Shown here: piece after piece, positions 40,128 through 54,475 of the stretch | Numbering within the stretch: the stretch's first letter is position 1 | Layout: each line of letters opens with the position of its first letter | From: Pseudomonas mendocina | Lineage (GTDB): Bacteria; Pseudomonadota; Gammaproteobacteria; Pseudomonadales; Pseudomonadaceae | NCBI RefSeq assembly: GCF_003008615.1 | Contig: NZ_CP027657.1 | Coordinates: 496,001-560,000 of the forward strand | Direction: 5' to 3' | Length of the DNA stretch: 64,000 nucleotides | Made by a program: the position numbers and the translations under genes | Notes under the pieces: generated by a model | What the model saw: only the letters and a program-made list of their open reading frames with translations | Told to the model about the DNA's origin: nothing | The model's database searches: none

Positions 40128-40235
40128 GCAGCCTGTCACCCCGGGCGTAAATACTGGCACTTTGCTCAGGAATGCCCCTTGCCATTCGCGGTCAAAGCTC
40201 TGCATGCTTGTTCCATAACAACGAAAAGAAACGCT

Positions 40236-41282
40236 ATGGCTATCCAGACCGCTCGTTTGCTGAAGCGCCTGCGCAATGATTTCCAGCTGTCGATCATTAC
40301 CCTGATGGGGCTGTTCGGCGTCATTGGCATCACTCCCTACGCCGTCTACCGCCTGCTGAACGGCAACTATCTGGTCGGTATCGCCGACACCGTCATCGTC
40401 TTATCCACACTATTCGCCGTGCTCTACGCCTGGTTTACCCGTGACACGGTCAAACCCGGTATCTACCTGGCTGCAGTCTTCTCCATCGGTGCCACGCTGA
40501 TCGCCATCAACCTGGGCGTCAATGGCCTGTTCTGGATCTATCCGCTGATTCTCTTCAACTTCTTCATGGTCACGCCTGGCAAAGCGCTGCTGGCGACCTC
40601 CGTGGTGCTGGTCAGCCTGGTCAGCCACGCCCTGCTGGTGCCTGGCAGCGTGTTCGAAAGCCACTACCAGATGGTTTCGTTTCTGGTCACCTGCATGATG
40701 GCCAGCGTACTGAGTTTCATCTTCGCGTTCCGTACGCGTAACCAGCGCGACCAACTGCAGCTGCTGGCCATTCATGACCCACTCACAGGTGCCCGCAACC
40801 GCAGGGCGATGAACGAAGAACTGAAGATCGCCATGGCCAGCCATCGCCGTCACAGCGACAACTACGGACTGCTGGTAATGGATCTGGATCATTTCAAGCA
40901 GATCAATGACCGCTTCGGCCACCATGTCGGCGATCAGGTTCTGGTGGCTTTCGTCGAGCTGATCATACGTTGCTCGCGCAAGGAAGATCGCCTGTTCCGC
41001 TTCGGCGGCGAGGAGTTTCTCCTGCTATTGCCCAACACCGAAATCGACGGCCTGCGCGCTGCCGCACAAAACCTGCTGATGCGGGTCGAACAGGAGTTGA
41101 AAAGCCCAGGCGGCGCGGTCACCGTGTCCATCGGCGGCGCCGTCCTGCACAGCGGCGAGCATTGGGAAAGCTGGCTACAGCGCGCCGACGCCTGTCTCTA
41201 TCGGGCCAAGAGCGAAGGACGTAACCGTGCGGTGATCGCCGGCACCCCGAGCCCCGTGGATCACACCGCCGCAAGCCATTGA
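40236..41282 (+). CDS. Membrane-bound diguanylate cyclase
   Basis: A 348-residue protein with five or six N-terminal membrane segments (about residues 18-175) and a C-terminal GGDEF domain (about 185-345). The active site is GGEEF and the inhibitory site RKED lies five residues before it, so it should synthesise c-di-GMP with product inhibition. The membrane part is not a known sensor family that I can name. The ATG at 40236 follows AAAGAAA. Confidence 0.87.
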   Translation: MAIQTARLLKRLRNDFQLSIITLMGLFGVIGITPYAVYRLLNGNYLVGIADTVIVLSTLFAVLYAWFTRDTVKPGIYLAAVFSIGATLIAINLGVNGLFWIYPLILFNFFMVTPGKALLATSVVLVSLVSHALLVPGSVFESHYQMVSFLVTCMMASVLSFIFAFRTRNQRDQLQLLAIHDPLTGARNRRAMNEELKIAMASHRRHSDNYGLLVMDLDHFKQINDRFGHHVGDQVLVAFVELIIRCSRKEDRLFRFGGEEFLLLLPNTEIDGLRAAAQNLLMRVEQELKSPGGAVTVSIGGAVLHSGEHWESWLQRADACLYRAKSEGRNRAVIAGTPSPVDHTAASH

Positions 41283-46470: not shown

Positions 46471-47799
46471 CTATGCCGGAACCGCCCCGGCCAAGCCCTC
46501 ACGCATCCGTAGCGCGTCGCGCTGGAAGCAGCGCGACGCCTGCAGCAATGCCAACAGAGTCAGGAACAACGCAACCGGGATCAGCACCATCGCGTCATGC
46601 AGGCCAGCGGCCTTGAACGCCTCGCTCATCTCGCTGGCACCGGCTGCGTGCATGGCTGCCTGCGCGTAATGATCCGACAGCCAGCCCACCGCCAGCGGAC
46701 CGAGGCCCCCACCCAGCAGGTATAGGCCGGCGAAGAACAGCGCCATGGCCGTGGCCCGCAGGCGCGGCTCGATCACATCCTGGATCGCCGTGTAGACGCA
46801 GGTATAGAAGTTGTAGGAGAACAGCCAGCCCAGGCTGAATACCCCGACGAACACTGCCGTATCGATTCGTCCTGCGCTTAGCGCCCAACCGGTGCAGACG
46901 CAGGCCACCAGCATGCTGAGGGCGGCGAACAGCAGCCGGCCGTTGTGCCAGCGCTGATGTACCTTGTCGGCGATCCAGCCCCCTGCCGTCAGACCGACCA
47001 GCCCGGTGAGCCCGACGATCACGCCAGTGGCCATTGCCGCATCCTGCAGGCCCAGGCCGAAGTAGCGTTGCAGCATCGGCACCATGAACGAGTTGCAGGC
47101 GTAGGCGGCGAAGTTGAACGCCAGGCCCGCCAGTACCAGCCACCAGAAGGTGCGGATTGCCAGCACCGTGCGCAGCGGCTTCTCCACTGGCGCGCTGCTG
47201 ACGCGAGTGACCTCCGCCGCACCACGTGCCGGCTCGCGAATGAAGAACAGGAACAGCGCCAGAATCAGCCCCGGCACGGCGGCGATCAGAAACGGCGCGC
47301 GCCAGCTGCCGAATGCCTGAACCATGGCGCCGATGGTGAAGAACGCCAGCAACAACCCCAGCGGCAGGCCGAGCATGAAGAGGCCCATGGCCCGTGAGCG
47401 CTTGTGGGCAGGAAACAGGTCGCCGATCAGCGAGTTGGCCGCCGGTGCATAGCTGGCCTCACCGATGCCCACGCCCATGCGAATCAGCAGAAAGCTCCAG
47501 AAATTCCAGGCCATGCCGTTGAGCGCTGTCAGGCCACTCCAGGCCGCCAGGCCCCAGCCCATGATCTTGCGCCGCGCGCCGGTATCGGCCATCCGCCCGA
47601 GCGGAATGCCGGCCAGGGCATAGACGATGGTGAAAGCGGTGCCGATCAGGCCGAGCTGCAAATCGCTCAGGCTCCACTCCAGGCGTATCGGCTCGATGAT
47701 GATGGCGGGAATGGTGCGATCGAAGAAGTTGAACAGGTTGGCAAGGAAAAGCAGGAACAGAATGCGCCAGGCATTCGTGGCTTGCTGATTGGGCTGCAT
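46471..47799 (-). CDS. Spinster-type MFS transporter
   Basis: A 442-residue major facilitator of the spinster family. The N-terminal LLFLANLFNFFDRTIPAIIIEPI and the LGRMADTGARRKIMGWGLAAWSGLTALNG loop are typical, and there are 12 membrane segments. Members in proteobacteria transport organic acids or lipids, and the substrate is not predictable. It is divergent from the tubulin-like gene across a 230-bp spacer. Confidence 0.86.
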   Translation of the reverse strand: MQPNQQATNAWRILFLLFLANLFNFFDRTIPAIIIEPIRLEWSLSDLQLGLIGTAFTIVYALAGIPLGRMADTGARRKIMGWGLAAWSGLTALNGMAWNFWSFLLIRMGVGIGEASYAPAANSLIGDLFPAHKRSRAMGLFMLGLPLGLLLAFFTIGAMVQAFGSWRAPFLIAAVPGLILALFLFFIREPARGAAEVTRVSSAPVEKPLRTVLAIRTFWWLVLAGLAFNFAAYACNSFMVPMLQRYFGLGLQDAAMATGVIVGLTGLVGLTAGGWIADKVHQRWHNGRLLFAALSMLVACVCTGWALSAGRIDTAVFVGVFSLGWLFSYNFYTCVYTAIQDVIEPRLRATAMALFFAGLYLLGGGLGPLAVGWLSDHYAQAAMHAAGASEMSEAFKAAGLHDAMVLIPVALFLTLLALLQASRCFQRDALRMREGLAGAVPA

Positions 47800-48029: not shown

Positions 48030-50246
48030 ATGGCCAACAGCCAACACCCCACTGACTCGCCCGGACTGTCACCGATGAAAACTAAAAAAGACGCCGTAGC
48101 CCCCGCCAAGGAAGCCACCCTGGCCGATCTCGCCGACACCCTGCTGGCGCCACCCGCGCTGCCGGTGCACAGCGACAGCGGCGAGCAGTACCTGTACTTC
48201 ACCGAACGCGACATCGAACGCATCCTCGATAACCTCGATGGCCTGCGTAACCTGGTGTTTCCTCTCGGTGAACCGCTGGACGACAGCGAGTCCAGCCGCA
48301 TCCAGCAGTTTCCCTCGGTGTGCCTGATCGGTCTCGGCCGCTGCGGCTCGAACATCGCCCTGGACGTCGCCTCCCTGGTCTACAACGCGCGCCAGTTCTA
48401 TCTGGAGGAGTTTCACAGCGAAGCCACCGCCGCCATCGAGCAGGCCTCGCGCCCCAGCCGCTGGATTCGCAGCAACCTGCTGCGTACGCCGAGCAAGAGC
48501 AGCAAACCGGTATTCCTGATCGAACCGCTGGTGATGCTCGGGGATCTGGACAAGGACATCGAAGGGCGCATCCGCTTTTCCCGCAAAGGAGAAACCAGCG
48601 GCTTTCTCAACGACTACAGCAAGATGAAGATCATGGATCTGTCCGAGGTGCATGCCGGCGGGGCCGGCAACGCGCCGATACTCGGTCAGTACCTGGCCAA
48701 GATCATCCTCAACAAGGACACCCAGCGTTTCACCAACGAGGACTGGAAGTTCATCCACAGCTACCTGATCGACTCCTGCGGGATCAAAGCCAACCAGTCA
48801 CGCCTGTACTTCTACATCTTCAGCGCCGGTGGCGGTACTGGCTCGGGCATGGCCTCGGAGTTTGGCCTGGCGCAGCAGTTCGCCTACATGAGCAAGACCT
48901 TCGACAGCAAGGCACCGGACGACAGCGAGGGCGAGCGCGACCGGGGCTTCGTCTTCGAACCGATTTTCACTAGTGGCATCTGCATCCTGCCGAACATCTC
49001 CGACCAGCGCAGCGAGATGTCCGAAGCGCTGCACATCAATGCCGGGCGTCTGCTGTGCAAGTACCTGGCCGAGGAATGGGACTTCTCCTACAACTTCGAC
49101 AACGAGCAGAGCAGCGCCGAAAGCGTGATGCGCCGCATCCGCCCATGGAACGCCATGATGCTGATCTCCAACGACATCATGCGCTACGCCGAAGAGAGCG
49201 GTGACGGCAGTATCCACAACCTCGACGTAACGGCCATGGAGCGCCATGCCAACCAGTACATCTCGCAGCAGATCTTCAACATTCTTACCGCCCAGGCAGT
49301 AACCAGCGACTACGACCAGAACTACTTCCGCCGCGCCGGCATCGACATCGGCGAAACCATCCGCCTCGACGCCAACGACCTGTTCATGAGCCTGGCCGGC
49401 CCGGTGGCCGTGGCCTATGCCGAGTCCGTGGTGCCCGAACAGCCGGCTCAGCTCTCGGAGAAATTTCGCGTGCTGGACAAGGAACAGCACCCACCGCGAC
49501 TGAACATCGACGACCTGTTCTTCCGCTCCATCGACCTGCCGCACTTCAATAAGGTCACCCAGGCCATCGAAGGTATCAGCCTGCTACCGATCGAATCCAA
49601 GCGCTATCGCCAGGCGCTCGAGCAATACAAGTCCAGCGGCTACGACGCCACCCAGTTGAGCGACCTGCACTTCTTCAAGAACTGTTCCTCGGTGGTGTCC
49701 ATCGTCTCGCTGCCCAAGGACTACAAGCTGTCGTACATGGATCTGAACCGGCTCAAGACCCACCTCAACAACCTCTTCCCCAACACCACGCTCAAGCGCT
49801 ACGCACTGGTGATCGGCGCCTCGGCCAACCTGTCGCTGACCACCCTGATCGTCAAGAGCCCGTGCCTGTCGGACGACTTCCTGACCTTGATCGTCGCCTA
49901 CATCAAGCGCTGCTTCGCCCGCGACCAGTACCGCTTTGACGACAGCCTGGACGACGCCATGCTCGATTTCATCGTCGCCGAACGCTTCAACGAGGCACAG
50001 CTCGACAGCATGCTCAACGAATACGAAGACCCGGCGAAGATCCTCGACACCAACTGGTATGCGATCAAACCGATGTACGAGAAGAAGTACCGTGAACTGA
50101 TCCATGACGCTGAGAAGTTCGTCTCGATCAACGACATCCGTCTATCGCGCGAAAGCGTCAAGCAGGCGATCAAATACCTGCGCGAGATTTACCGCCATCG
50201 CATCGGCAAAACCCGGGTAATTTCGCTCAACGACTACGGGAAATAG
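48030..50246 (+). CDS. Large tubulin/FtsZ-superfamily GTPase-like protein
   Basis: A 738-residue protein with no signal peptide or membrane span. After a 95-residue extension comes CLIGLGRCGSNIA (98-110), like the FtsZ/tubulin T1 loop. HAGGAGNAPILG (209-220) suits T3 and AGGGTGSGMASEFG (266-279) is the tubulin signature T4. SND (380-382) could be a T6-side Asn, and RLDANDLFMSLA (445-456) resembles the catalytic T7 loop of FtsZ (NVDFADV). These suggest GTP binding and perhaps polymerisation. It is much longer than FtsZ or TubZ and resembles the FtsZ-like/Tubulin_2 families proposed for membrane remodelling. No partner gene is coupled; a c-di-GMP enzyme gene follows 65 bp later. I chose the ATG at 48030; 48075 is possible. 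Confidence 0.75.
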   Translation: MANSQHPTDSPGLSPMKTKKDAVAPAKEATLADLADTLLAPPALPVHSDSGEQYLYFTERDIERILDNLDGLRNLVFPLGEPLDDSESSRIQQFPSVCLIGLGRCGSNIALDVASLVYNARQFYLEEFHSEATAAIEQASRPSRWIRSNLLRTPSKSSKPVFLIEPLVMLGDLDKDIEGRIRFSRKGETSGFLNDYSKMKIMDLSEVHAGGAGNAPILGQYLAKIILNKDTQRFTNEDWKFIHSYLIDSCGIKANQSRLYFYIFSAGGGTGSGMASEFGLAQQFAYMSKTFDSKAPDDSEGERDRGFVFEPIFTSGICILPNISDQRSEMSEALHINAGRLLCKYLAEEWDFSYNFDNEQSSAESVMRRIRPWNAMMLISNDIMRYAEESGDGSIHNLDVTAMERHANQYISQQIFNILTAQAVTSDYDQNYFRRAGIDIGETIRLDANDLFMSLAGPVAVAYAESVVPEQPAQLSEKFRVLDKEQHPPRLNIDDLFFRSIDLPHFNKVTQAIEGISLLPIESKRYRQALEQYKSSGYDATQLSDLHFFKNCSSVVSIVSLPKDYKLSYMDLNRLKTHLNNLFPNTTLKRYALVIGASANLSLTTLIVKSPCLSDDFLTLIVAYIKRCFARDQYRFDDSLDDAMLDFIVAERFNEAQLDSMLNEYEDPAKILDTNWYAIKPMYEKKYRELIHDAEKFVSINDIRLSRESVKQAIKYLREIYRHRIGKTRVISLNDYGK

Positions 50247-50311
50247 GCGGTCTGGGGCGTGCTTGTGCTTCACTGAGTAGGGCACGCTAGCCACTGCCAA
50301 GCGGGGTGACT

Positions 50312-52492
50312 ATGGAAGGACTTTCGATCCGCTTTCTCGCTGATCTGCCCGAGCAGGGCCAACTCCTGCTCGACTGCAGCCATGATCCCTGGCTGGTGTT
50401 GCTGTCGTACGTCATCGCCAGCGTCGGCAGTCTCAGCACACTGACCATCGCCAAGCACCTCGATCATGTACAGAGACGCAGCATGCGCCTGGCTTGGGGC
50501 CTAGTTGGTGGCTTGTGCCTGGCGGGCGCAATCTGGTCCATGCACTTCATCGGCATGCTGGCCTTCCAGGCGCCTGTCGCCATCCGTTATGACCTGGCCA
50601 CCACCGTGCTGTCGTTACTGGTAGCCCTGGCTGCCGCCCTGCTCGCCTTGTACTGCATGGCCATGCCACGCCCCGGCTTGGATCGGCAGCTACTGGCCGC
50701 CGTGATCATCGGCCTGGGCATCACCGCCATGCATTACAGCGGCATGGCAGCGATCCGCTCACAGGCCCAAGCCTACTACCACGGTGGCCTGTTCACCCTG
50801 TCCATCGTCATCGCCATCAGTGCCAGCTTTGCCGCGCTGCAACTAAACCGCTACGTACGCTACGGTTCATCGCGCCGTCAGCGCTGGCTGAAATATTCCG
50901 CAGCCCTGGTGATGGGGGCAGCCATCGCCGCGATGCACTACACGGGCATGGCCGCGCTGCATCTGGTGGTGCCGGATGGCACGGCCCTGGAGTTGCGCAG
51001 CGCCGATAACAGCGTGCAACTGGTCGTGATCGTAGCCTCGATCACCCTGCTGATCCTCACCTTGAGCCTGGCCGCCGCCTGGGCCGGACGCAAGCTGGAC
51101 GACAAGGAGCGCGACCTGCAGCGGGTCAACAACCTGCTGGTACAACTTGATCAGGCCAAGGCCTCGTTGGAACAGGTAGCGCACTTCGATCCGCTGACAG
51201 AGCTGCTCAACCGCCGTGGTTTCAATCGGGTATTCGCTGCCACGCTGGAGGAACATGCCGTCACCGGACGCACCCTGGCGGTGATGTTTCTCGATATCGA
51301 TCACTTCAAACGCATCAACGACACCCTCGGTCACGATGCCGGTGACGAACTGCTGCGCGTCGTGGCGCAACGCATCCGCGCCGCGCTGCGTGAACGCGAC
51401 ATCATCGCCCGCTTCGGTGGCGATGAGTTCTGCGTGGTCGCCAGCCTCGACAGCAATGCCGACCCGCGCGCGCTGGCCAACCGAATGCTGGAACAGATGA
51501 AGGAGCCGATCAGCCTGGCCGGGCGCAAGATCGTGATGACCACCAGCGTCGGCATCAGCCTGTTCCCACAAGATGGCAGCAGCGCCGACGAACTGCTCAA
51601 GCACGCCGACCTGGCGCTCTATCAATCCAAGGGCAGCGGACGCAACGTGGTGCATTTCTTCAATCCGCACCTGAAACAGAAGGCCTCGTTCGAGCTGCAA
51701 CTGGAAGAGGATCTGCGCCAGGCATTGCAGCAGGATCACGGCCTGACCCTGTTCTACCAGCCGATCATCGACCTGAGCAGCGGCGCGCTGAGCAAGCTCG
51801 AAGCTCTGGTGCGCTGGCATCATCCGCAACATGGGTTGCTCACGCCCGAGCGCTTCATCGCCGTTGCCGAAGCCAATGGTTTCATCGACCAGCTCGACAA
51901 CTGGGTGCTACGCCGCGCCTGCCTCGACCTCAACAGCCTGGATCAGATGGGCTACCCAGGCCTGAAGATCGCCGTCAACTGCTCGGCCCTGAATCTGGCT
52001 AACGACCAATTACCCGGCCGCATCGAGCAGTTGCTCAACGCCACCGACTGCCCCGCTCAGTGCCTGGAGTTGGAGGTGACCGAAAGCGCGCTGCTGAGCA
52101 ACATCAACCGCGCCATTGGGCTGCTGGAAAACATTCGTGCACTGGGCGTGAGCCTGTCCATCGACGACTTCGGTACTGGCTATTCGTCCCTTGCCTATCT
52201 GCGTCGCCTGCCGCTGGACACACTGAAGGTCGACCGCTCCTTCATTCAGGACATTGCCGATTCGAACCAAGATCGTGAAATCGTCCACGCCATCATCGCC
52301 ATGGCCCACGCCCTGCATCTGAAGGTGGTGGCCGAAGGCGTGGAAACCGCCGAACAGTTGGCGTTCCTGCAGGAACGCGGTTGCGATCAGGTACAGGGCT
52401 ATCTGTTCAGCAAACCGGTGCCACTGGAGGAGATCGTCACCCTCTTCCCGCCACATTACCGCCCGCTGGAGCGCGTGGGCACGAGGTTCTGA
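50312..52492 (+). CDS. MHYT-GGDEF-EAL c-di-GMP enzyme (NbdA/MucR type)
   Basis: A 726-residue inner-membrane protein. Seven membrane segments form an MHYT sensor domain with SMHFIGM, AMHYSGM and AMHYTGM motifs, believed to bind copper and sense NO or oxygen. Then comes a GGDEF domain (GGDEF intact, with inhibitory-site RERD five residues before) and an EAL domain with EAL, the ETES-like glutamate region, DDFGTGYSSL and KVVAEGVET all intact. Both synthesis and hydrolysis of c-di-GMP are therefore possible. The layout matches NbdA (PA3311) and MucR (PA1727); position near rapA favours NbdA. GGGGTG precedes the ATG at 50312. Confidence 0.87.
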   Translation: MEGLSIRFLADLPEQGQLLLDCSHDPWLVLLSYVIASVGSLSTLTIAKHLDHVQRRSMRLAWGLVGGLCLAGAIWSMHFIGMLAFQAPVAIRYDLATTVLSLLVALAAALLALYCMAMPRPGLDRQLLAAVIIGLGITAMHYSGMAAIRSQAQAYYHGGLFTLSIVIAISASFAALQLNRYVRYGSSRRQRWLKYSAALVMGAAIAAMHYTGMAALHLVVPDGTALELRSADNSVQLVVIVASITLLILTLSLAAAWAGRKLDDKERDLQRVNNLLVQLDQAKASLEQVAHFDPLTELLNRRGFNRVFAATLEEHAVTGRTLAVMFLDIDHFKRINDTLGHDAGDELLRVVAQRIRAALRERDIIARFGGDEFCVVASLDSNADPRALANRMLEQMKEPISLAGRKIVMTTSVGISLFPQDGSSADELLKHADLALYQSKGSGRNVVHFFNPHLKQKASFELQLEEDLRQALQQDHGLTLFYQPIIDLSSGALSKLEALVRWHHPQHGLLTPERFIAVAEANGFIDQLDNWVLRRACLDLNSLDQMGYPGLKIAVNCSALNLANDQLPGRIEQLLNATDCPAQCLELEVTESALLSNINRAIGLLENIRALGVSLSIDDFGTGYSSLAYLRRLPLDTLKVDRSFIQDIADSNQDREIVHAIIAMAHALHLKVVAEGVETAEQLAFLQERGCDQVQGYLFSKPVPLEEIVTLFPPHYRPLERVGTRF

Positions 52493-52520: not shown

Positions 52521-52599
52521 GTAGGGTGCGCCATGCGCACCGAGCCAAATTGATACAACCGAGAACCATGCGAACCGCGGTGCGCACAGCGCACCCTAC
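52521..52599. repeat. GTAGGGTGCGC inverted repeat pair
   Basis: GTAGGGTGCGCCATGCGCAC at 52521 and its inverted partner ending GCGCACCCTAC at 52599 form a BIME-like pair. The second unit contains the stop codon of the hyi gene (52596-52598). Confidence 0.7.
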
Positions 52600-53381
52600 G
52601 TACGCTGCTGCCACTGCGCCAGCCAGCCGAGGCTCGCCTGCGTGCCCGCATCACCTGGTTTGTACTCGGCGCCCAGCCAACCGGCGTAACCGCTGTCACG
52701 CAGCGCACTGAGCAGGGCCGGGAACGCCAGCTCCCCCGTACCTGGCGCACCGCGCCCCGGCACATCGGCGAACTGCACATGACCGATGCGCCCGGCCAGC
52801 AAGCGCATACCCGCCGCCACATCCAGCCCCTGACGTGCCATGTGGTAGAGGTCGTACTGCGCGGCCAGGTTGGGATGATCGACAGCATGCAACAGCTCGT
52901 CCAACTGCTCAGGCGTATTGATCAGGAAACCCGGCATGTCGATAGGGTTGATCGCCTCCACCAGCACCTGAATGCCCAACAAGGCAAAGGCCTCGGCACT
53001 CTTGCGCAGGTTGGCGGTAAGGCAATCCAGTGCCTGCTCACGATTCACACCCTCAGCCAAGCGCCCCGGTAGCACATTGATGCAGGCCGGGCGCACCATG
53101 GTGGCGTAGGTCAGAGCCTCCTGCAGCGCGGCATCGAAATCCGCCTGACGTGCCGGCACGCCAGCCAGGCCAGGGCCACCGGTCATCAAGTCACCGGCAG
53201 GTACATTGATCAGCACCAGCGGCAGGCCCGTGCGTTCCAAGGTTTCTTTCAGGCTGATGGCCGGCAGCTCGTAGGGGAACTGAATCTCCACACCGTCGAA
53301 GCCGGCAATCGCAGCGGCCTGCACACGCTCGCGCAGCGGCAACTCGGTGAACAGCATGGACAGATTGGCGGCAATTCTCAT
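52596..53381 (-). CDS. hyi: Hydroxypyruvate isomerase
   Basis: A 261-residue TIM-barrel enzyme of the AP-endonuclease-2-like/Hyi family, interconverting hydroxypyruvate and tartronate semialdehyde. Metal-ligand regions are LVEAINPIDMPGF, LAAQYDLYHMARQG and HVQFADVPGRGAPGTGE. I chose the ATG at 53381, which overlaps the upstream stop as ATGA and has GGGAG eight bases before it. It forms an operon with the reductase gene, but the usual gcl (glyoxylate carboligase) gene is absent. Its stop codon is inside an intergenic repeat. Confidence 0.9.
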   Translation of the reverse strand: MRIAANLSMLFTELPLRERVQAAAIAGFDGVEIQFPYELPAISLKETLERTGLPLVLINVPAGDLMTGGPGLAGVPARQADFDAALQEALTYATMVRPACINVLPGRLAEGVNREQALDCLTANLRKSAEAFALLGIQVLVEAINPIDMPGFLINTPEQLDELLHAVDHPNLAAQYDLYHMARQGLDVAAGMRLLAGRIGHVQFADVPGRGAPGTGELAFPALLSALRDSGYAGWLGAEYKPGDAGTQASLGWLAQWQQRT

Positions 53382-54268
53382 GGGCATTGCTCCCGCAGCA
53401 GTTGCACCAGCGTGGCCGGATCACGCTCCAGATTGCCCTGGCTGCCGTGCAATCGCATCAGTTGCGCAGCCAAACCGCTCATCGGCGTAGCGCTGCCCTG
53501 CTCGCGCGCAAGCTTCACCGCTGTATCGAGATCCTTGAGTAGCGTGCGCACGTGCCACTTGATCGGCTCGAACTGGCTGGCGGCCATTTGCGGCGCGAGA
53601 ATCTGCAACGGCTTGGAATCGGCGAAACCACCGGCCAGCGCCGGAGCGATCAAGCTCGCGTCGACATCGGCGCGCTCGGCCAGCGCCACCACCTCGGCGA
53701 TCACCAACGCATTGCAGGCGACGATCATCTGGTTGCACACCTTGGTCACCTGCCCGGCGCCCACCTCGCCCATGCGCGTCAGGCGCTGCCCCAGGTGCGC
53801 GAGCACCGGACGGATACGCTCCACGTCGTCCTCACGCCCGCCGGCCATGATCGCCAGAGTGCCCGCTTCGGCCCCGGGCGTACCGCCGGAAACCGGTGCG
53901 TCCACCCAGCGCATGCCAGTGCGCGCTTCCAGCTCGGCGGCCATCTCACGCGTTGCAGCCGGCTCCAGGCTGGAGAAATCCACCAGCAGTTGTCCCGGCC
54001 GAGCCCCCTCGACGATACCGCCCACGCCAAATACCACCTCACGCACCACGTCGGTATTGGCCAGACACAACATCACCACATTGGCATCGCGGCACAGCTC
54101 GGCCGGTGTTTCCACGCGGTGCGCACCGTGTTCCAGCAGAGGCGCACATTTATCCGGGGTACGGTTCCAGATGGTCAGCGGGTAGCCGGCAGCGAGCAGG
54201 CGACAGGTCATGGGCAGGCCCATCAGGCCAATACCAGCGAAGGCGACGGCGGGCAGCGAAGCGGTCAT
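53378..54268 (-). CDS. glxR: 2-hydroxy-3-oxopropionate (tartronate semialdehyde) reductase
   Basis: A 296-residue beta-hydroxyacid dehydrogenase. The NAD-binding motif is FAGIGLMGLPM, the substrate motif DAPVSGGTPGAEAGTLAIMAGG, and the catalytic lysine is in GAGQVTKVCNQM. With Hyi it would reduce tartronate semialdehyde to glycerate. 3-Hydroxyisobutyrate dehydrogenase is the close alternative, and the P. aeruginosa gene in this neighbourhood is annotated so. The ATG at 54268 has GGAG upstream. Coupled to hyi by ATGA. Confidence 0.85.
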   Translation of the reverse strand: MTASLPAVAFAGIGLMGLPMTCRLLAAGYPLTIWNRTPDKCAPLLEHGAHRVETPAELCRDANVVMLCLANTDVVREVVFGVGGIVEGARPGQLLVDFSSLEPAATREMAAELEARTGMRWVDAPVSGGTPGAEAGTLAIMAGGREDDVERIRPVLAHLGQRLTRMGEVGAGQVTKVCNQMIVACNALVIAEVVALAERADVDASLIAPALAGGFADSKPLQILAPQMAASQFEPIKWHVRTLLKDLDTAVKLAREQGSATPMSGLAAQLMRLHGSQGNLERDPATLVQLLREQCP

Positions 54269-54475
54269 ACGAGGCTCCAGATGGCAGTGAATAAATCGAT
54301 CGGCCAATACTAACCGCGCACGGCGCTTTGCCTGGAGGTTTCATCCACCAATACCACGCTCATTGAAAACACACAGGGCTTGAGCGAGCATCAATAGCTC
54401 ATGGCCATCATGCGCTTAGCACTTGCGCAGTGCCTGGTCATGAATCAACAACCCTTCCCGACAACAGGATGTCGT

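Follow-up and report, generated by a model that had tools for sequence, protein, structure and literature searches.

An FtsZl2-family tubulin homologue of Pseudomonas mendocina and its recurrent but facultative c-di-GMP enzyme neighbours

Background

TubZ/RepX of plasmids and the tubulins of phages belong to the same superfamily as the division protein FtsZ. Another family, FtsZl2, was named by Makarova and Koonin in 2010 and is typified by Pseudomonas PFL_1302, for which a profile match to Pfam Tubulin with an E value of 0.0033 was reported (PMC2875224). Its description comprises a T4 motif of the form GGGTG(S/T)G, T1, T6 and T7, the connector helix H7, additional sequence between T1 and T4 compared with FtsZ, and a C-terminal region of about 300 residues, which is of mixed alpha/beta structure, has no coiled coil and belongs to no known family (PMC2875224). 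FtsZl2 was described as restricted to Proteobacteria and predicted to form filaments, and the part of the paper dealing with it reports no gene associations and "no functional clues" from context; the figure legend names Pseudomonas fluorescens and Marinomonas (PMC2875224). FtsZl1, in contrast, was described with a coiled coil and with vWA and OmpA partners (PMC2875224). Tubulin_2-type proteins are kept apart from the analysis in the relevant part of a 2023 study (PMC9871819). No published test of FtsZl2 function was found in a literature search. One hit, PMC7327170, was rejected, the string FtsZl2 denoting the FtsZ mutant L272E in the matching text.

Here, a stretch of 64,000 nucleotides from P. 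mendocina (NZ_CP027657.1, positions 496,001 to 560,000), referred to as the window, was analysed. An initial annotation had pointed to a large tubulin/FtsZ-like protein of unknown role encoded in it. The family of this protein is the one described in 2010 as FtsZl2.

Results

The gene and the loops of its product

The open reading frame comprises 738 codons and is a real gene. Of the 76 sequences aligned, which include the window protein, at least 90% have M16, and a relative with 96% identity to the window protein has 723 residues. A start at M16, position 48075, is therefore preferred and is probably the correct one rather than 48030. The gene, the loops and the C-terminal elements of the protein are the following:

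48030..50246, + strand: gene of the FtsZl2 family, 738 codons from this start; 48075 (M16, 723 residues) is the more likely start
48330..48353, + strand: T1-like nucleotide loop GLGRCGSN, residues 101-108 (motif and 76-sequence alignment)
48660..48677, + strand: T3-like GAGNAP, residues 211-216; resembles GAGANP of the genome's own FtsZ, the profile match itself not being significant
48828..48848, + strand: T4 signature GGGTGSG, residues 267-273 (motif and 76-sequence alignment)
49164..49178, + strand: T6-like ISNDI, residues 379-383; N381 and D382 invariant
49362..49382, + strand: T7-like RLDANDL, residues 445-451; D447 and D450 invariant
49437..50243, + strand: C-terminal region past T7, from about residue 470 (boundary approximate); no Pfam match in the window protein
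50136..50195, + strand: basic and conserved segment, residues 703-722; no other proline-free stretch of 18 residues has a higher amphipathic moment

The T1, T4 and T7-like motifs noted initially were located as listed, and T3-like and T6-like loops could be added to them. By motif and position, all five follow the order known from FtsZ. Invariant in the 76 aligned sequences, window protein included, are G101, G103, G106, N108, G267 to S272, the pair N381-D382, D447 and D450, while G273 of T4 is conserved in at least 90%. A pattern requiring the motifs in this order was found in 122 of 123 FtsZl2 reading frames and in none of 7177 other reading frames at the same loci. The pattern was written for FtsZl2 and fits only three of 30 gammaproteobacterial FtsZ sequences, probably because ND is required at T6.

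In overall dimensions, the protein differs from FtsZ. It is about 1.8 times as long as the genome's own FtsZ (397 residues as trimmed), somewhat short of the more than twofold length claimed initially, and the starts of T1 and T4 are 166 residues apart (101 and 267) compared to 88 in own FtsZ (18 and 106). About 270 residues follow T7. The basic amphipathic segment within it could be a site of contact to the membrane or to a partner.

Assignment to the superfamily and to FtsZl2

Scores against Pfam models were low. For Tubulin_2 (PF13809), the window protein reached an E value of 0.031 (14 bits, cut-off 27) over the T4 region, and for Tubulin (PF00091) 0.046 (14.4 bits, cut-off 33). While the window protein itself thus stays below the cut-offs, the matches are consistent across the family: all 14 members scanned match Tubulin (E up to 1; best 2.7e-4) and 13 match Tubulin_2 (E up to 1; best 0.0012). 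Four of the 14 also match the unrelated DUF6562 (best E 0.008), and three further families were hit by one member each. A profile comparison of FtsZl2 with 30 gammaproteobacterial FtsZ sequences, both alignments being narrow, gave a P value of 0.025, which is not significant considering the controls (0.011 for reversed FtsZ, 0.017 for one of ten column shuffles). No tubulin match was obtained among PDB sequences with either the single protein or the profile as query. Taken together, the conserved motifs, the weak but consistent Pfam matches and the published profile match of PFL_1302 support membership in the tubulin/FtsZ superfamily, as initially proposed; the assignment is made at the level of sequence.

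Judged by the same kind of evidence, the window protein fits FtsZl2, a kind of protein already known. It has GGGTGSG at T4, T1, T6 and T7 by motif and order, inserts between T1 and T4, and the long C-terminal region without known relatives, and it coexists with FtsZ; the family as found here occurs in both P. fluorescens and Marinomonas. The link to PFL_1302 is by family description, the sequence of PFL_1302 lying outside the alignments made here. To FtsZl1, represented by Tubulin_2, the likeness is confined to the weak match at T4, which is under the Pfam cut-off for the window protein, and at an E value of 0.001 Tubulin_2 matched nothing in the own genome.

Distribution and conservation

In the genus of the window, 27 of 36 genomes (own included) contain FtsZl2, compared to one of 21 other genomes of the relatives set, two of 369 in a class sample and nine of 398 in a phylum sample (own included in both). 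Higher numbers were obtained for the Marinomonas family (29 of 48) and for the order of genome G787 (27 of 247, two of them, G787 and G959, with fragments only). The matches listed include Cellvibrio, Rheinheimera, Arsukibacterium, Alkalimonas, Agarivorans, Corallincola and Celerinatantimonas. Named relatives among them are proteobacterial with one exception, and the genome searches covered the window's own phylum. The exception, P0198, is a close relative labelled Flavobacterium sp., which may be mislabelled or contaminated. In G787 (locus L121) and G959, stops lie between or inside the FtsZl2 fragments; those of G787 adjoin reading frames resembling sucABCD by eye, and a 211-codon reading frame separates the pieces.

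Identity to the window protein ranges from 57 to 83% in an alignment of 14 sequences and from 60 to 75% across 41 loci of other lineages, with most of the length covered. Since the similarity is not restricted to the core, the additional regions of FtsZl2 look constrained as well. Such conservation, along with the long T1-T4 insert and the long extensions, would also suit a GTP-binding regulator or scaffold of tubulin fold that does not build long filaments, the extra domains capping assembly. We regard this as unlikely, because the T7 aspartate pair is invariant in all 76 sequences and filaments were predicted for FtsZl2 in the section of the 2010 paper on the family (PMC2875224).

Relationship to division FtsZ and to plasmid and phage tubulins

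When the own genome was searched with the Pfam Tubulin model, a single gene was detected, encoding an ordinary FtsZ elsewhere in the genome. FtsZl2 shares T1, T4, T6 and T7 with it in the same order, but is longer, patchily distributed and specified by a separate gene. Along with the fragmentary copies, the latter two features speak against FtsZl2 being the division FtsZ, a reading that was rejected. Identity with TubZ/RepX or phage tubulins was likewise rejected, no match having been found in 72,556 plasmid records, 50,697 phage records and a set of viral contigs; the gene is chromosomal here. The protein therefore is distinct from division FtsZ and plasmid TubZ, as had been suggested. That it might act as a second division protein or as a TubZ-like tubulin in plasmid or phage segregation is compatible with loops common to the superfamily, but highly improbable given its patchy presence alongside normal FtsZ, the broken copies in two genomes and the lack of any match in the mobile element sets.

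The c-di-GMP enzyme gene of the window

Downstream of the FtsZl2 gene, a reading frame on the same strand begins about 60 bases past the stop codon:

50306..52492, + strand: gene for an MHYT-GGDEF-EAL c-di-GMP enzyme, ATG at 50312; three MHYT units, GGDEF and EALVRW motifs intact

The neighbour is thus indeed a membrane c-di-GMP enzyme, c-di-GMP being a signal for surface attachment. Between the two genes, a terminator scan revealed no site on the + strand; overall, the scan gave scarcely more sites than shuffled sequence. The two genes are possibly co-transcribed, and the statement that FtsZl2 stands as a single gene appears doubtful.

The pair is flanked by an MFS transporter gene and two genes with AP_endonuc_2 TIM-barrel and 3-hydroxyisobutyrate-dehydrogenase-type domains (46471-47799, 52596-54307). 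Relatives of the latter two are located up to six genes away in 18 and 29 of 88 loci, respectively. A second GGDEF gene (40179-41279) lies about 6.5 kb upstream of FtsZl2 in the window and is kept 5-7 kb upstream in nine other loci.

Recurrence of c-di-GMP enzyme genes next to FtsZl2

Neighbours were counted at 123 loci: the window, 80 named loci and 42 from genome searches, one copy (L121) being broken. The named loci are the best 80 of 497 encoding a relative, and all but one are from Pseudomonas or Pseudomonadaceae, so that the sample is weighted to the genus. Loci with short flanks (L003-L030 and L111-L118) are outside this count. GGDEF, EAL and PilZ were located by a six-frame distance scan, in which the PilZ model, derived from five own-genome seeds, may miss PilZ genes.

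At 62 of the 123 loci, a gene for a GGDEF protein, with or without EAL, is found within 1.3 kb, without exception on the FtsZl2 strand and in 38 cases within 600 bases. Two more loci (L191, L192) have a PilZ gene 1.1-1.2 kb upstream. Pfam-checked representatives fall into four enzyme families, MHYT-GGDEF-EAL, NMT1-GGDEF, ammonium-transporter-PAS-GGDEF-EAL and TPR-GGDEF, which differ in their sensor parts and have intact GGDEF-type and, where present, EAL motifs in the one example inspected per family. Each of the first three types was found upstream of FtsZl2 at some loci and downstream at others. Within Pseudomonas, an NMT1-GGDEF gene occupies the place of the window's MHYT-GGDEF-EAL gene at three loci (L042, L047, L048). 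On the FtsZl2 tree, in which 43 of 118 inner branches are weak, the type of partner changes at least 17 times and the state near or none at least 16 times, both counts being without a shuffle control. A PAS-GAF-GGDEF-EAL gene 2.2 kb downstream at L124 was counted as far.

Within 1.3 kb, 62 matches were obtained in 317 kb of DNA, compared to 14 in the 1548 kb, about five times more, between 1.3 and 8 kb. These raw counts are not independent, and collapsed counts are preferred. Collapsing by enzyme family and side left seven near and four far arrangements, with 0.82 expected near on the basis of the far rate (ratio 8.6; Poisson P = 2.4e-5), and collapsing by family alone left four near against 0.82 expected (P = 0.0098); these P values are optimistic, as the 1.3 kb cut-off was set after the distances had been seen and the far set is small. 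As background, the own genome contains about 54 GGDEF genes in 5.77 Mb (55 segments).

A facultative association

The association is facultative. No GGDEF or EAL gene is present within 1.3 kb in 61 of the 123 loci. Adding the PilZ pair to the positives leaves 59, two of which (L054, L124) are cut by contig ends. Furthermore, in 23 of the 62 near loci the enzyme gene is 933-992 bases upstream, and in all 23 a dehydrogenase-like gene on the opposite strand lies between, excluding a simple shared transcript there.

Orthologs of the ammonium-transporter enzyme in the Marinomonas family were detected in 25 of 29 FtsZl2-positive genomes (20 adjacent, five at other places) and in 15 of the 19 that lack FtsZl2, and no co-inheritance with FtsZl2 was found in these 48 genomes. 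At L296 and L299, both FtsZl2-negative, the same site is kept with the ammonium-transporter-GGDEF-EAL enzyme. Positive genomes carry FtsZl2 on either side of this gene (L210, L215), or have no such gene. From the empty sites and the enzyme-free positives it follows that the enzyme can occur without FtsZl2, and FtsZl2 without the enzyme.

How the neighbours are to be interpreted depends on the weight given to these observations. FtsZl2 could form a GTP-driven filament whose role is unrelated to c-di-GMP, the enzyme genes being chance insertions into permissive sites that were kept by descent. We consider this quite possible, if short of an even chance. Half of the loci have no such neighbour, enzyme and FtsZl2 presence are uncorrelated in Marinomonas, another gene intervenes in 23 loci, GGDEF genes are numerous in the own genome, and the authors of the 2010 paper saw no association in their passage on FtsZl2 (PMC2875224). 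Chance insertion, however, accounts poorly for the seven near arrangements, drawn from four enzyme families, against four far ones, for a uniform orientation in 62 of 62 cases, and for the substitution of MHYT-GGDEF-EAL by NMT1-GGDEF within Pseudomonas.

A link to surface behaviour had initially been considered on the basis of the single neighbour in the window. The recurrence of c-di-GMP neighbours supports it indirectly. Genes for methyl-accepting chemotaxis proteins were seen next to FtsZl2 on both sides at L194, at position -1 on the same strand at L204 and at position +2 on the opposite strand at L209, all three loci having no GGDEF or EAL gene within 1.3 kb. They would fit surface behaviour, but such genes are common and the observation is uncontrolled.

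Discussion

What is new here is the recurrence of same-strand c-di-GMP enzyme genes beside members of a known family; the FtsZl2 section of the 2010 paper (PMC2875224) reports no gene association, whereas adjacent c-di-GMP enzymes recur, facultatively, in the present data. The reading we prefer, with a probability of about 40%, is that FtsZl2 forms a GTP-driven filament working with the local c-di-GMP turnover of the adjacent enzyme. GTP would be bound in the pocket formed by T1 to T4. As in FtsZ, each subunit would contribute its T7 aspartates to complete the active site of its neighbour in a head-to-tail stack. The additional N-terminal part, the insert and the C-terminal region of about 270 residues would decorate the filament, and contact with the membrane or with a partner might be made through the basic amphipathic segment. 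Coupling could operate in either direction: local c-di-GMP from the adjacent enzyme might control the filament, or the filament might position the membrane-bound enzyme. In both cases the pair would serve a surface-related behaviour and not division.

More tentatively, FtsZl2 could be regarded as a cytomotive filament of the tubulin type that is connected to c-di-GMP, being paired in several lineages with a sensory enzyme that may be exchanged for another (MHYT, NMT1, ammonium-transporter or TPR type); in such a module, the tubulin would convert or position a local second-messenger signal. The recurrent neighbours, with one enzyme type replacing another, provide a concrete hypothesis that is testable in common laboratory pseudomonads. 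If it is true, a bacterial tubulin would be linked to second-messenger signalling.
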